From contig CAIQUS010000087.1 in the NCBI GenBank assembly GCA_903875045.1, forward strand, positions 1 to 50,414: a stretch of 50,414 nt of DNA, given 5' to 3'. Every line of letters starts with the position of its first letter. The first letter of the stretch is position 1. Origin of the DNA: an uncultured Bacteroidales bacterium (GTDB lineage: Bacteria; Bacteroidota; Bacteroidia; Bacteroidales; FEN-979). This document shows, one piece after another, positions 2,723 through 50,413 of this stretch. The notes beneath the pieces are model-generated. The model had not been told where the DNA came from, ran no database searches, and worked only from the letters and a program-made list of their open reading frames with translations. The position numbers and the translations under genes were made by a program.

Positions 2723-2905
2723 CACTCCGATCAGTCTGCTAACAAATAATTTTACCGCAGAGGGCCGCAGTGTTTATTCACAGAGGGCCGCAAAGTTATA
2801 GTTATCTGAGAGTTATCTCTGCGGCCCTTTGCGGTTTCTTTGTGTTCTTTGCGGTTTAACAATTTTTTAAATGGTGATTTGATGAATAAACGACTTTTCG
2901 GAGTG
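2723..2905. repeat. MITE-like element, copy A (183 bp)
   Basis: The element starts CACTCCGATCAGTC and ends GACTTTTCGGAGTG, giving imperfect 14-bp terminal inverted repeats. It is nearly the same sequence as 50230-50413 and the reverse complement of 17648-17830. Inside, CCGCAGAGGGCCGCA pairs with CTCTGCGGCCCTTTGCGG further right, so a long hairpin can form. The whole 2491-2939 gap holds only this element and unremarkable A/T-rich sequence; apparent reading frames in it are translations of the repeat. No transposase is encoded. Confidence 0.8.
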
Positions 2906-16101: not shown

Positions 16102-17472
16102 TTATTGTTTGATAAACTTTTCCATGGTGACCGATTCATTTTGGCTCAGCCTGAGAAAATAAACCCCGCCGGGCAAGCTGGTAATATCAAGCCGGGTCTT
16201 TGGCTCAGTTATTTTTTCAGAGATAAGTTCCTTGCCGGTAATATCTGTGATGGTCAGATAGCTTTTTCCTATTGGATATGCGGTTTCCACTGTCAGGTAG
16301 CCGGTGGCAGGATTCGGATACACCGACACCCTTGATCGGGTTGACTCATGAAGTCCGACATAAACGGAATCAAATTTCATAACCGTTGCACCAACAACTG
16401 AATCTGCAAATGCCACATAAGGTTCACCGGTCAAACTGAAGGCAAGGCTTGTACAATCAGCTTCATCTGCCGAGAAACCTGCTGTGCCGACCACAACCCA
16501 ATTGGTGCCATCAAACTTCATCACCGTTGCTTTCGAGTTATTCGCTTCATCCTCAAATGCCACAAAAGGTTCACCGGCAGGACTGAATTTCAGGCAGGTA
16601 TATTCGGGAAACCCTGTTGAAAATCCAGCATTCCCAACGTTTACCCAACCGGATCCGTTAAATTTCATGACGGTGGCCTTGTAAGCACTCGCATAATCTG
16701 AATAACCTACATAAGGTTCACCGGACGGGCTGAAAGCAAGGCTTGTATAGGAAACCTCTCCTGCTGAAAAACCAGCATTCCCGACAGTCACCCAGTTGGT
16801 CCCATCGAATTTCATCACAGTGGCTTTGTGCGAATTCGCTTCATCTTTATATGCCACATAAGGCTGACCGGCAGGGCCGAATGCAAAACTTAAATATAAC
16901 GCCATTTCGTCAGAAAAACCCTCATCCCCGACTTTCACCCAGTTGGTGCCGTCAAATTTCATGACGGTGGCACCAGAATTCACATAATCATTGTAAGCCA
17001 CATAAGGTTCACCTGCCGGACTGAAGGCAAGATTGGTATACTGTGGAAATCCTGCGGAGAAACCCGGAATTCCGACATTCACCCAATTTGCCCCGTCAAA
17101 TTTCATGACAGTGGCTTTGTAAGAACTCCCAAAATCGGTGAAAGCCACATAAGGGTCACCTGAGGGACTGAATGCGAGACTTGTAAAAGAAACTCCCCCT
17201 GCTGAAAAATCGGGTGCACCCACCTGAACCCAGTTGGTTCCGTTATATTTCATCACATTGGCTTTTAAAGAATTCCCTTCATCTTTGAATGCCACATAAG
17301 GTTCACCCGCAAGGCTGAAAGCCAGACTGGTGTAATCCGCCTCTGATGGAGAGAAACCCGGATTTCCCACATTCATCCATGCATGATCCAATGGAGAATC
17401 TTTATCCCTGGTCTGCTGGGCAACTAGTGCAACCGGGAATAATAACAATAAAAAATAGCAAAGTTTTTTCAT
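16102..17472 (-). CDS. T9SS cargo protein with seven 49-residue repeats (probable beta-propeller)
   Basis: 456 residues from ATG 17472 (signal peptide MKKLCYFLLLLFPVALVAQ); the longer frame adds a non-signal extension. Seven tandem units of about 49 residues follow, each like FSAGxxxYTSLAFSPxGEPYVAF, then KATVMKFDGTNWVxVG. Seven units suggest a seven-bladed propeller. The C-terminus is a complete T9SS type A sorting domain (RVSVYPNPATGYLTVE ... YFLRLSQNESVTMEKFIKQ). The DNA repeats are also well conserved, which points to recent duplication or gene conversion. Ligand and role are unknown. It lies 42 bp upstream of the TonB locus on the same strand. Confidence 0.8.
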   Translation of the reverse strand: MKKLCYFLLLLFPVALVAQQTRDKDSPLDHAWMNVGNPGFSPSEADYTSLAFSLAGEPYVAFKDEGNSLKANVMKYNGTNWVQVGAPDFSAGGVSFTSLAFSPSGDPYVAFTDFGSSYKATVMKFDGANWVNVGIPGFSAGFPQYTNLAFSPAGEPYVAYNDYVNSGATVMKFDGTNWVKVGDEGFSDEMALYLSFAFGPAGQPYVAYKDEANSHKATVMKFDGTNWVTVGNAGFSAGEVSYTSLAFSPSGEPYVGYSDYASAYKATVMKFNGSGWVNVGNAGFSTGFPEYTCLKFSPAGEPFVAFEDEANNSKATVMKFDGTNWVVVGTAGFSADEADCTSLAFSLTGEPYVAFADSVVGATVMKFDSVYVGLHESTRSRVSVYPNPATGYLTVETAYPIGKSYLTITDITGKELISEKITEPKTRLDITSLPGGVYFLRLSQNESVTMEKFIKQ

Positions 17473-17636: not shown

Positions 17637-17841
17637 AAATTTGAGACCACTCCGAAAAGTCGTTTATTCATCAAATCACCATTTAAAAAATTGTTAAACC
17701 GCAAAGAACACAAAGAAACCGCAAAGAACCGCAGAGATAACTCGCAGATAATTATAACTTTGCGAAACTCTGCGAAAATACTCTGCGGCCCTCTGCGGTT
17801 AAATTATTTGTCAGCAGACTTTTCGGAGTGCCCTCAAATTT
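17637..17841. repeat. MITE-like element, copy B (inverted relative to A and C)
   Basis: CACTCCGAAAAGTC at 17648-17661 is perfectly repeated, inverted, at 17817-17830. The inverted match extends outwards to AAATTTGAG (17637-17645) and CTCAAATTT (17833-17841), with only two mismatches in 25 bp. The inside carries 10-bp units (CCGCAAAGAA, CACAAAGAAA, CCGCAAAGAA, CCGCAGAGAT). It sits within a GGAAC-type repeat tract (about 17620-17640 and 17841-17865). The gap 17473-17875 holds nothing else recognisable. Confidence 0.82.
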
Positions 17842-28832: not shown

Positions 28833-28940
28833 TCTCTGTGGTTTCTGTGTTAAATATGTATTGTATATCTTTACACAGAGTTACACAGAGTTGCACAGAG
28901 ATACACAGAGGCGCACAGAGGCGCACAGAGGGACACAGAG
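28833..28940. repeat. 10-bp repeat array (CACAGAG), left arm
   Basis: Seven exact-length 10-bp units (NNRCACAGAG) fill 28871-28940. They are preceded by inverted half-units (CTCTGTGGTTTCTGTGTTAAA, starting at 28834), so a hairpin can form within the left arm as well. The array lies just 3' of the GxxExxY gene on its strand and is inverted relative to the array at 29351. Confidence 0.9.
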
Positions 28941-28961
28941 ATTTCGCTGAGTGTCAGGGGT

Positions 28962-29333
28962 TTAAATTCTGTATCTTTTGATACCATTTTTAAGCATTGT
29001 CACATTGAAATTAATCAAAAGACCGATGCTTTTATGTGCAAACTTCATATAGGTTAATATTTGCGCATGGTGAACCGGGTGAAAGGCATCGACAGTTTTT
29101 AATTCAATGATCACTGTATCTTCGACCAACAGGTCTATCCTATATCCATAATCCAATTTAATCTCCTTGTAAACTACCGGAACTGGTTTTTGTTTTACCA
29201 CACTCATACCAGCATGATTTAACTCGTACATGAGACATTCCTCATAAGCCGATTCCAATAATCCCGGTCCAAGGTGTTTATGCACTTCAATTGCACAACC
29301 AATGATCTTTTCGGTGATCTGATTGATTTCCAT
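28962..29333 (-). CDS. GxxExxY-family protein (PDDEXK-like fold)
   Basis: 123 residues, full family length. It carries the name-giving motif G-L-L-E-S-A-Y (residues 24-30). PDDEXK-type nuclease residues follow: Asp in YRIDLLVED, the E-L-K triad end in TVIIELKTV (about 74-82), and a downstream QILTY (like the Q-x-x-x-Y motif of RecB nucleases). The substrate and role of the family are not known to me. It is isolated between converging genes and bracketed by inverted arrays of 10-bp CACAGAG repeats, about 20 bp away on each side, an arrangement that suggests the gene and arrays form one unit. Confidence 0.88.
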   Translation of the reverse strand: MEINQITEKIIGCAIEVHKHLGPGLLESAYEECLMYELNHAGMSVVKQKPVPVVYKEIKLDYGYRIDLLVEDTVIIELKTVDAFHPVHHAQILTYMKFAHKSIGLLINFNVTMLKNGIKRYRI

Positions 29334-29350
29334 AATTTTTGTTTTTAAGT

Positions 29351-29490
29351 TTTACCTCTGTTTACCTCTGTGTATCTCTGTGTATCTCTGTGTATCTCTG
29401 TGTATCTCTGTGTATCTCTGTGTATCTCTGTGTAACTCTGTGTAACTCTGTGTAAATATGTGTATCTCTGTGTAAATATGTGGATCTCTG
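29351..29490. repeat. 10-bp repeat array (CTCTGTG), right arm
   Basis: Fourteen consecutive 10-bp units, mostly TGTATCTCTG, with variants TTTACCTCTG, TGTAACTCTG and TGTAAATATG. On the minus strand they read ATACACAGAG, leading directly into the GxxExxY start (18 bp from its ATG). The strict 10-bp period places each core on nearly the same DNA face. Downstream, 29491-29688 shows nothing recognisable. Confidence 0.92.
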
Positions 29491-29688
29491 GTGAAAAGGT
29501 AAGAAAAACTCACACCGAGGCCACAAAGTAAGCATAGCGAGATTTATCAGGCTCAAGATCAGCGCACCTCTGATGAATCGCACTTACCTTAATTGCTTAA
29601 TCGGAAAAAAGTAAAAAGGTTGTACCATTGTGAAGAAAAAAATCATTTTATTTCAGCAATGTTTATTTAAAGTTTAACATCTAACTGT

Positions 29689-45935: not shown

Positions 45936-46102
45936 CCGGATAAAGGACTGGGTTTTGGTGGGTGAAGGATGCGAGCAGGGTCAAGAAATCATAGGGTCAC
46001 GCGGTCACAAAGTTGTGGATTGTTGCTAAGTTTTTTGATTTTTCGTATTACCTTTTTGAATTTTTCCGATTAAGCAATATATGGGAAATGAAATCTAATC
46101 AA

Positions 46103-46226
46103 CTCCTCCGCGGTTCTTTGCGCGAACACTCCGCGGTTCTCTGCGCCAAAACTCTGTGGTTCTCTGCGTTTAAATCAATTTTAACCGCAGAGGGCCGCAA
46201 AGAAGGCGCAGAGAACCGCAGAGAAA
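46103..46226. repeat. Palindromic 10-bp repeat element (CCGCAGAG)
   Basis: The left arm (46103-46172) carries inverted units (CGCGGTTCTCTGCG, CTCTGTGGTTCTCTGCG). The right arm (46181-46226) carries CCGCAGAGGG, CCGCAAAGAA, GGCGCAGAGA and ACCGCAGAGA, so the arms pair around an AATCAATT-type loop. It resembles the inside of the MITE-like elements but lacks the CACTCCGAAAAGTC ends. It occupies the 400-bp gap 45878-46277 together with a GGTCACGCGGTCAC motif near 45994. Confidence 0.8.
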
Positions 46227-50229: not shown

Positions 50230-50413
50230 TACTCCGATAAGTCTGCTAACAAATAATTTAACCGCAGTAGGGCCACAGAGCTTTTTCGCAAAGGACCGCA
50301 AAGTTATAGTTATCTGTGAGTTATCTCTGCGGCTCTTTGCGGCTTCTTTGTGTTCTTTGCGGTTTAACAATTTTTTAAATGGTGATTTGATGAATAAACG
50401 ACTTTTCGGAGTG
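50230..50413. repeat. MITE-like element, copy C (runs to the window edge)
   Basis: It starts TACTCCGATAAGTC and ends GACTTTTCGGAGTG, in the same orientation as copy A (2723-2905) and nearly identical to it, including the GGTTTAACAATTTTTTAAAT stretch near the right end. The right flank is cut by the window end. Confidence 0.8.

Follow-up and report, generated by a model that had tools for sequence, protein, structure and literature searches.

Genes for the GxxExxY protein, a small predicted nuclease, recurrently lie between two inverted arrays of short DNA units, with core spacings that are matched on the two sides of the gene and that follow the clade of the protein. We tentatively propose, giving the idea nearly an even chance, that gene and arrays constitute a compact selfish element that would work like the REPIN-RAYT systems with an unrelated nuclease. 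We favor this explanation because the unit recurs across phyla, its arms match in spacing, and the type of array tracks the protein clade; further, gene-less arrays follow the genomes that bear the gene, and one site is found with the unit full, part-deleted, or absent. A compact selfish element had been one suggestion of an earlier, sequence-only reading of this DNA, and given the recurrence, the matched arms, and the absence alleles, it stays the best one; recognition, cutting, and movement by the nuclease are what we infer. GxxExxY proteins have been named in databases without a function, and repeats of the CACAGAG and CACGAAG types lie scattered without an owner; linking the two gives each a testable role.

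The unit in the window and its predicted nuclease

The window, by which we mean the whole 50,414-bp stretch of DNA analyzed here, is the complete contig C87 of a draft genome of 5.96 Mb in 253 contigs. Its GxxExxY gene is flanked on both sides by arrays (Table 1). Seven exact CACAGAG cores, spanning 28874-28940 at a strict 10-bp period, begin 21 bp past the stop codon, and an inverted array of 13.5 copies with 88% matches (TRF) lies 22 bp ahead of the ATG, in agreement with the inverted pair of 10-bp arrays about 20 bp from the coding sequence noticed in the sequence-only reading. The fourteen 5' units counted there are reached only by including degenerate ones: 10 cores are exact copies of CTCTGTG (CACAGAG on the minus strand), and the remaining positions, as read from the sequence, are degenerate (AATATGTG, CTCTGTT). 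Similarly, gene and arrays do form one unit, but the unit proper (28872-29490) measures 619 bp rather than about 650 bp. The short remnant just beyond the 3' array is perhaps the leftover of an outer arm.

Table 1. Positions of the GxxExxY unit, related arrays, and promoter-like motifs in the window
Feature	Position	Strand	Remarks
GxxExxY gene	28962-29333	minus	123 aa; predicted PD-(D/E)XK nuclease
3' array	28872-28940	plus	seven exact CACAGAG cores, 10-bp spacing; oriented toward the GxxExxY gene
5' array	29356-29490	minus	13.5 copies of a 10-bp unit; oriented toward the GxxExxY gene
Degenerate two-unit remnant	28834-28849	minus	CTCTGTG-2-TTCTGTG, read from the sequence; opposite orientation to the 3' array
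Promoter-like motif	29594-29624	minus	TACAACCTTTT-N9-CCGATTAAGCA; score 20 of 22; upstream of the 5' array
Promoter-like motif, strict copy	46048-46076	plus	adjoins the gene-less hairpin at 46106-46225
Gene-less hairpin	46106-46225		minus-strand arm 46106-46168, plus-strand arm 46186-46223; CGCAGAG/CACAGAG-type units
Gene-less hairpin	17697-17797		plus-strand arm 17700-17736, minus-strand arm 17758-17797; CGCAAAG/CGCAGAG-type units
Further gene-less arrays or hairpins	50274-50361, 2817-2853		CGCAAAG/CGCAGAG-type units

A three-unit pattern of the array matches 12 times in the window and never in 100 dinucleotide-preserving shuffles. The whole 5.96-Mb genome holds 19 matches at two places, namely, the window unit and a single array on C161, where PF13366 has no match on the contig, and none to the reversed pattern. 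Hydrogenase/sulfite-reductase-like subunits are encoded on one side of the unit and a protein without a family match on the other. Three of 18 genomes have the unit at its own site. Because relatives vary in what follows the neighboring gene on its 3' side, the window site was dropped as a clean empty site, and we used nuoJ-nuoK and comM for absence alleles. Elsewhere in the window, at 16613-17307, there is a 147-bp tandem repeat of 4.7 copies with 68% matches (TRF).

The window protein belongs to the families TIGR04256 (E 3.2e-46, 156.5 bits against a cut-off of 35) and PF13366 (E 2.7e-44, 150.7 bits against a cut-off of 22). In an alignment of 24 proteins, G22, G24, E27, Y30, D67, E77, K79, Q91, and Y95 are invariant, constituting the motifs G24xxE27xxY30, D67, E77-x-K79, and Q91xxxY95; D67, E77, and K79 bear out the PDDEXK-type residues that had been read from the window protein alone. 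With these D...E-x-K residues and an alpha/beta core (AlphaFold2 model, pLDDT 95.2), the protein is a member of the PD-(D/E)XK superfamily, and we take the D, E-x-K, and QxxxY motifs to be those of the RecB/Cas4/lambda-exonuclease branch. The top-ranked Foldseek matches are LHK-Exo, lambda exonuclease, and SSO0001, the last presumably a Cas4 (best E 2.3e-3, none below 1e-3), and a search of the PDB by sequence found no relative up to E 10. On sequence and model, the protein is predicted to be a minimal lambda-exonuclease/Cas4-like PD-(D/E)XK nuclease, which shares with Cas4 and lambda exonuclease the fold and the active-site order including QxxxY but is about half their size and is flanked by its own arrays. 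Thirteen of 18 homologue pairs have dN/dS values of 0.04-0.15, a range in which several dS values exceed 1 (saturated). The range omits the five pairs for which dS was not finite; these include one poorly aligned pair (0.45 identity) and the two comparisons involving the gene of the window (dN 0.095 and 0.136). A toxin or defense nuclease, with the arrays as regulatory or self-marking DNA, would be compatible with the PD-(D/E)XK active site and with a weak similarity to Cas4 (PADLOC, E 8e-4), but among the neighboring genes that came into view, no partner was noticed, and at E 1e-5, matches occur in none of 50,697 phage records and in only 8 of 72,556 plasmid records; we regard this role as very improbable.

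Paired arrays and core spacing among homologues

When 100 relatives were searched with the PF13366 profile, 54 gave matches, each carrier genome having 1 to 13 of them, and presence was patchy within the genus. Our first set of homologues comprises 96 places in 42 genomes, i.e., 95 of the 111 best-listed PF13366 places and a fourth copy in the window's genome. It leaves out the remaining 16 best-listed places, of which many lie on short contigs or are extra copies within a genome, and everything lower on the list; a stop codon interrupts the frame in two of the 96. When the 300-bp 5' flank was aligned locally with the reverse-complemented 3' flank, 60 of the 93 homologues with enough flank scored at least 14, versus 29 of 930 mismatched flank pairs and 6 of 381 control open reading frames (ORFs) of the same loci. 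An array detector that calls at least three 7-bp cores spaced 8-14 bp apart, run identically on the controls, recognized a pair of arms, one on each side and both facing the gene, in 42 of the 96 homologues versus none of the 381 control ORFs, and an array of any kind in 76 versus 48. These counts are low estimates, since the detector reported G016:C103 and G013:C45 as array-free even though arrays are present there, running into the start of the reading frame.

The second set consists of the best 80 of at least 576 confirmed relatives from GTDB species genomes, with the 24-protein alignment as the query. Here, both arms point toward the gene in 34 of 80 homologues versus 0 of 128 shifted controls, and any array is found in 70 versus 12. 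Hence, in both sets, most homologues do not lack flanking arrays, the outcome on which the sequence-only reading had made its proposal depend. Fourteen phyla are represented, with some array in 13 and the two-arm layout in ten; among these best 80, the latter was seen in Chloroflexota (4/4), Planctomycetota (5/6), Pseudomonadota (5/7), Bacteroidota (13/43), and the archaeal Methanobacteriota (1/2). At the 61 loci with an arm past the stop codon, its median distance from the frame is 6 bp; for the 49 with an arm ahead of the start, it is 16 bp. In the available portions of the open-licence literature, GxxExxY and PF13366 appear in passing, as in reports of PF13366 expansion in Arctic microalgae or of a GxxExxY protein encoded by an algal virus (PMC9756366 and PMC12085832); within that literature, as distinct from the NCBIfam and Pfam entry texts, we found no description of repeats around GxxExxY genes.

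An arm usually consists of three or four cores of 7 bp, such as CACAGAG, CACGAAG, CACTAAG, CACAATAG, CGCAAAG, and CGCAGATT, with spacing vectors such as 8-9-10, 9-10, 9-12-9, 9-13-9, 10-11-10, and 10-12-10. The first two spacings are equal on both sides of the gene at 32 of 42 loci in the first set (2,000 shuffles: mean 4.2, maximum 11) and at 23 of 34 in the second (shuffles: mean 4.3, maximum 12). In the first set, whose protein tree has 76 labeled rows and weak resolution (41 of its 93 inner branches are open), the spacing label requires 37 changes (shuffled mean 56.7, minimum 52) and the core label requires 43 (mean 61.0, minimum 56), while the genome label is near chance with 64 (mean 65.9, minimum 61). 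The tree of the second set gives 40 changes for spacing (shuffled minimum 47) and 36 for core (minimum 40), and on it the host phylum clusters too (25 changes, shuffled minimum 27). Close proteins of different genomes share the spacing in 52-57% of pairs, and distant proteins of one genome share it in 0 of 36 pairs at tree distances of 1.5-2.5 and in about 1 of 14 beyond. Spacing thus differs between clades and is largely conserved within each, and in the first set, the array type tracks the GxxExxY protein clade and not the host genome. Arrays that vary without regard to the gene, named in the sequence-only reading as grounds for abandoning its proposal, are contrary to what the tree displays. 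Its strict 10-bp period with all cores on one DNA face, on the other hand, is ruled out as a rule of the family, in view of the three or four units and clade-specific spacings of most relatives. The window protein sits in a clade with mostly 10-11-10 arms, for which reason its long, strict 10-bp arrays look like an expanded form of the usual arm. Another expanded array is that at L127 (G002:C56), where the GxxExxY gene has long arrays at 8-bp spacing.

Taking these findings together, we propose an element in which a single small nuclease of the lambda-exonuclease/Cas4 kind is combined with a promoter and with two short-unit arrays in inverted orientation. As an oligomer, the nuclease would read its own array, with three or four cores and their spacing as the address, and would cut or resect there; repair might then copy the element or its hairpin into the cut site. 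In the genus of the window, this step may fall in natural transformation, with the palindromic arrays folding as single strands. If spacing is indeed the address, the system would be a natural case of a tiny nuclease recognizing a composite site by its geometry. Alternatively, clade-specific arrays could be co-inherited with the protein without being recognized by it. As to the repeat-guided nuclease system also considered in the sequence-only reading, nothing that we came across pointed to a guide RNA.

Two GxxExxY copies located at different places in the genome, L064 and L065 (G000:C218 and G000:C5), have arms only on the 3' side and are bounded by ends that match, TATGACTATCCG...CGGATAGTYATA; they represent a different, transposon-like packaging of the gene.

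Occupied sites and dispersed gene-less arrays

The comM-family gene (YifB, TIGR00368), which we take to be ComM, has a match in 18 of the 19 genus genomes; we read 17 loci, 14 of them with a readable 3' end. Four of these have a full unit directly behind the gene (G003, G012, G013, and G016), three are part-deleted, and in the other seven, a stretch of about 1.4 kb contains no unit. The leftovers take the form of fused outer half-arms in G017, both arms around a gene fragment in G015, and a 5' arm alone in G001 (within 948 bp of sequence). Eight loci were inspected by eye beyond the site, and six of them share one convergent neighbor, which we take to resemble a UbiA-type prenyltransferase: G016 with the full unit, G015 with the leftover, and G000, G004, G007, and G009 with no unit. 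Alleles without the unit, for which the sequence-only reading had proposed to look, therefore exist at this site. The four full copies are two sister pairs within one subclade of the protein tree, so that one old insertion followed by repeated loss is possible, and the pattern fits repeated loss as well as gain, the two being indistinguishable here. In the copies behind comM in G016 and G013 (L413 and L415), the 5' array enters the coding region, and the first codons, MHEGAQRE, are array units. In another genome (G018:C16:48784-49311), a comM-family fragment with stops lies beside a broken GxxExxY frame on the same strand, and the comM-linked unit and the gene next to it appear to have decayed together.

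The spacer between nuoJ and nuoK could be read at 13 of 17 loci. It is empty at five; at another five, it contains a gene for a four-helix-bundle protein between inverted AT-rich arrays (the gene in G017 being matched only in part). One further locus has a piece of such a gene, one has a gene-less CACAGAG hairpin, and the window's genome has a GxxExxY unit with an in-frame stop codon. In the window and at these two other sites, the GxxExxY unit lies between protein genes.

Arrays also occur without a gene. The strict 10-11-10 four-core pattern is found in 10 of the 19 genus genomes, with up to 46 matches (in G013), and an 8-9 pattern is likewise found in 10 of 19, with no control matches for either (reversed control for the former). 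Many gene-less arrays are hairpins with two arms 11-16 bp apart; of the 14 that we inspected, the eight in G013 have unrelated flanks (by eye), and five of the six in G003 lie within a larger repeat. No target-site duplication was recognized by eye in the flanks of these 14 or at nuoJ-nuoK. The tight outward hairpins have an orientation opposite to what deletion of the gene from an ordinary unit would leave. G013 further contains dispersed array-105 bp-array elements of about 180 bp without a GxxExxY gene (L358, L360, and L361), with three copies alike inside and a fourth, of equal length, different inside, and one hairpin-flanked locus of G003 (L371) holds a remnant of a GxxExxY gene. G013 has 46 strict 10-11-10 arms, yet the three that were read of its five homologues are of another type.

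Across the 100 relatives, the CACAGAG-type pattern is present in 38 of 54 gene-bearing versus 5 of 46 gene-free genomes, with 658 versus 14 matches, counts that in gene-bearing genomes include the gene's own arms and that come from related, partly incomplete draft genomes, making p-values inexact. At least 10 such matches were counted by hand in 18 of the 54 and in none of the 46, and over all 100 relatives, the reversed control gave 5 matches in two genomes. Among 57 genomes of other families, the pattern is present in 14 of 28 gene-bearing versus 1 of 29 gene-free genomes. Gene-less arrays are thus dispersed almost only in gene-carrying genomes.

These hairpins bear on the idea that the gene is a passenger and that the arrays are the ends of miniature elements moved by another enzyme, with nuclease genes trapped between them. 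The abundance of gene-less hairpins would agree with this, as would three copies that lack a 5' arm and have arms only 3' of the gene (G000 having two of them and G002 one), the RAYT-like and IS200-type genes that in the genus also stand behind the promoter-like motif, and a second gene family, TIGR02436, with the same layout. But both RAYT-like genes that we read (L378 and L389) have their own dense repeats beside them, of the ACAGGTTGG and CACCCTGACGGGGTCC types, unlike the GxxExxY arrays; moreover, array spacing tracks the GxxExxY protein tree, and arrays are nearly absent from gene-free genomes. A passenger gene hence appears quite unlikely.

A shared promoter-like motif and known systems

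A motif of the form TTACYTTTT...CGATTAA, the type also present upstream of the window's 5' array, has 21 near matches 5' of arrays, all in sense, versus 7 elsewhere in 917 kb. With loose scoring, it precedes 36 of 96 GxxExxY genes within 320 bp versus 3 of 381 control ORFs, while the strict form, TTACYTTTT-N10-CGATTAAGCA, has 63 sites in 14 of the 19 genus genomes and none in the control. At 30 of these 63 loci, the strict motif precedes genes for ComEC (5), RadC (1), TIGR02436 (1), RAYT-like proteins (2, below the cut-off), IS200-type proteins (2, one just below the cut-off), PorV-like proteins (4, one scanned and below the cut-off, the others by eye), and lamin-tail proteins (2), as well as intact GxxExxY genes (2), decayed or gene-less arrays (5), and others (6). 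At 3 of the 14 comM-family loci, the motif likewise lies ahead of the gene. ComEC, ComM, and RadC are competence genes. We considered the motif as an insertion target and set this aside for a promoter-like element, because all 21 near matches are in sense 5' of the gene and unrelated genes are preceded by it as well. Judging from the motif, GxxExxY elements are perhaps expressed with competence genes, and it is possible that the motif marks a competence regulon that mobile elements have joined.

The same motif can be read in favor of the host: the arrays might be operators or targets for a recombination nuclease that belongs to the competence regulon and serves the cell, and might be dispersed by other means. 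Such a nuclease would trim or resolve palindromes in incoming DNA, and the arrays would provide self-regulation as an operator or as an mRNA stem closing off the gene. Consistent with this are the motif common to comEC, radC, and comM-family genes, the position of the GxxExxY gene, which in four species immediately follows the comM-family gene on its 3' side, the purifying selection on homologues, and the predicted transcript of the window unit, which folds as a long stem (z -14 versus 20 shuffles), as expected from inverted arrays. The patchy presence and the variable number of matches per carrier, however, fit a selfish element better, and the part-deleted copies and the sorting of array types by protein clade rather than by host genome also stand against a host function, which we consider unlikely.

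Returning to the selfish element, if mobility holds, its spread would be tied to natural transformation by the motif that it has in common with comEC, radC, and comM-family genes, and the GxxExxY nuclease would be a second type of enzyme, beside RAYT, living with dispersed hairpins. One may go further and envisage a new class of prokaryotic mobile elements (gene in at least 14 phyla, arrays in 13) with ends written in a spacing code, a competence-coupled spread with the uptake of single-stranded DNA, and the shedding of hairpins as landing sites; we hold this broader proposal to be somewhat doubtful. Homing endonuclease genes and the Rpn recombination-promoting nucleases, the latter of a different PD-(D/E)XK family, are parallels in which a small nuclease is the sole gene of a spreading unit; homing endonuclease genes differ in that no intron, intein, or fixed cognate site is shown for the GxxExxY unit.

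The closest parallel in organization is provided by REPIN-RAYT systems, in which a small enzyme gene is tied to inverted palindromic repeats and to dispersed hairpin doublets (Bertels and Rainey 2011, PMC3116915). In both, one small enzyme gene is linked to such repeats, repeat groups are tied to particular enzymes, and hairpin doublets are dispersed outside genes, here tied to the enzyme by co-occurrence only. The differences are that the enzyme is a PD-(D/E)XK protein and not the tyrosine transposase by which RAYTs are defined and that, in place of a REP sequence, there is a row of three or four cores, each 7 bp long, with a spacing code.

A second family shares the layout. TIGR02436, a four-helix-bundle family that we take to be the S23-type family, has genes in all 19 genus genomes, and most of those tested lie between inverted short-unit arrays, also at nuoJ-nuoK. 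The intervening sequences (IVS) of 23S rRNA are described as small elements with one ORF and are called selfish (PMC4990558), in both of which they are like the GxxExxY unit; they encode the four-helix-bundle S23 protein, with no nuclease, and are located in rRNA and excised by RNase III (PMC4990558). The GxxExxY unit instead lies between protein genes where read, and its ORF is PF13366. Among described elements, the 23S rRNA IVS comes closest to the TIGR02436 units. Thirty TIGR02436 loci were returned (L188-L217), of which 27 entered the flank test and 26 were testable; 22 of these 26 have inverted flanks with a score of at least 14, versus 17 of 260 mismatched pairs. Their arrays are short repeats of many sequences, other than those of the GxxExxY arrays.
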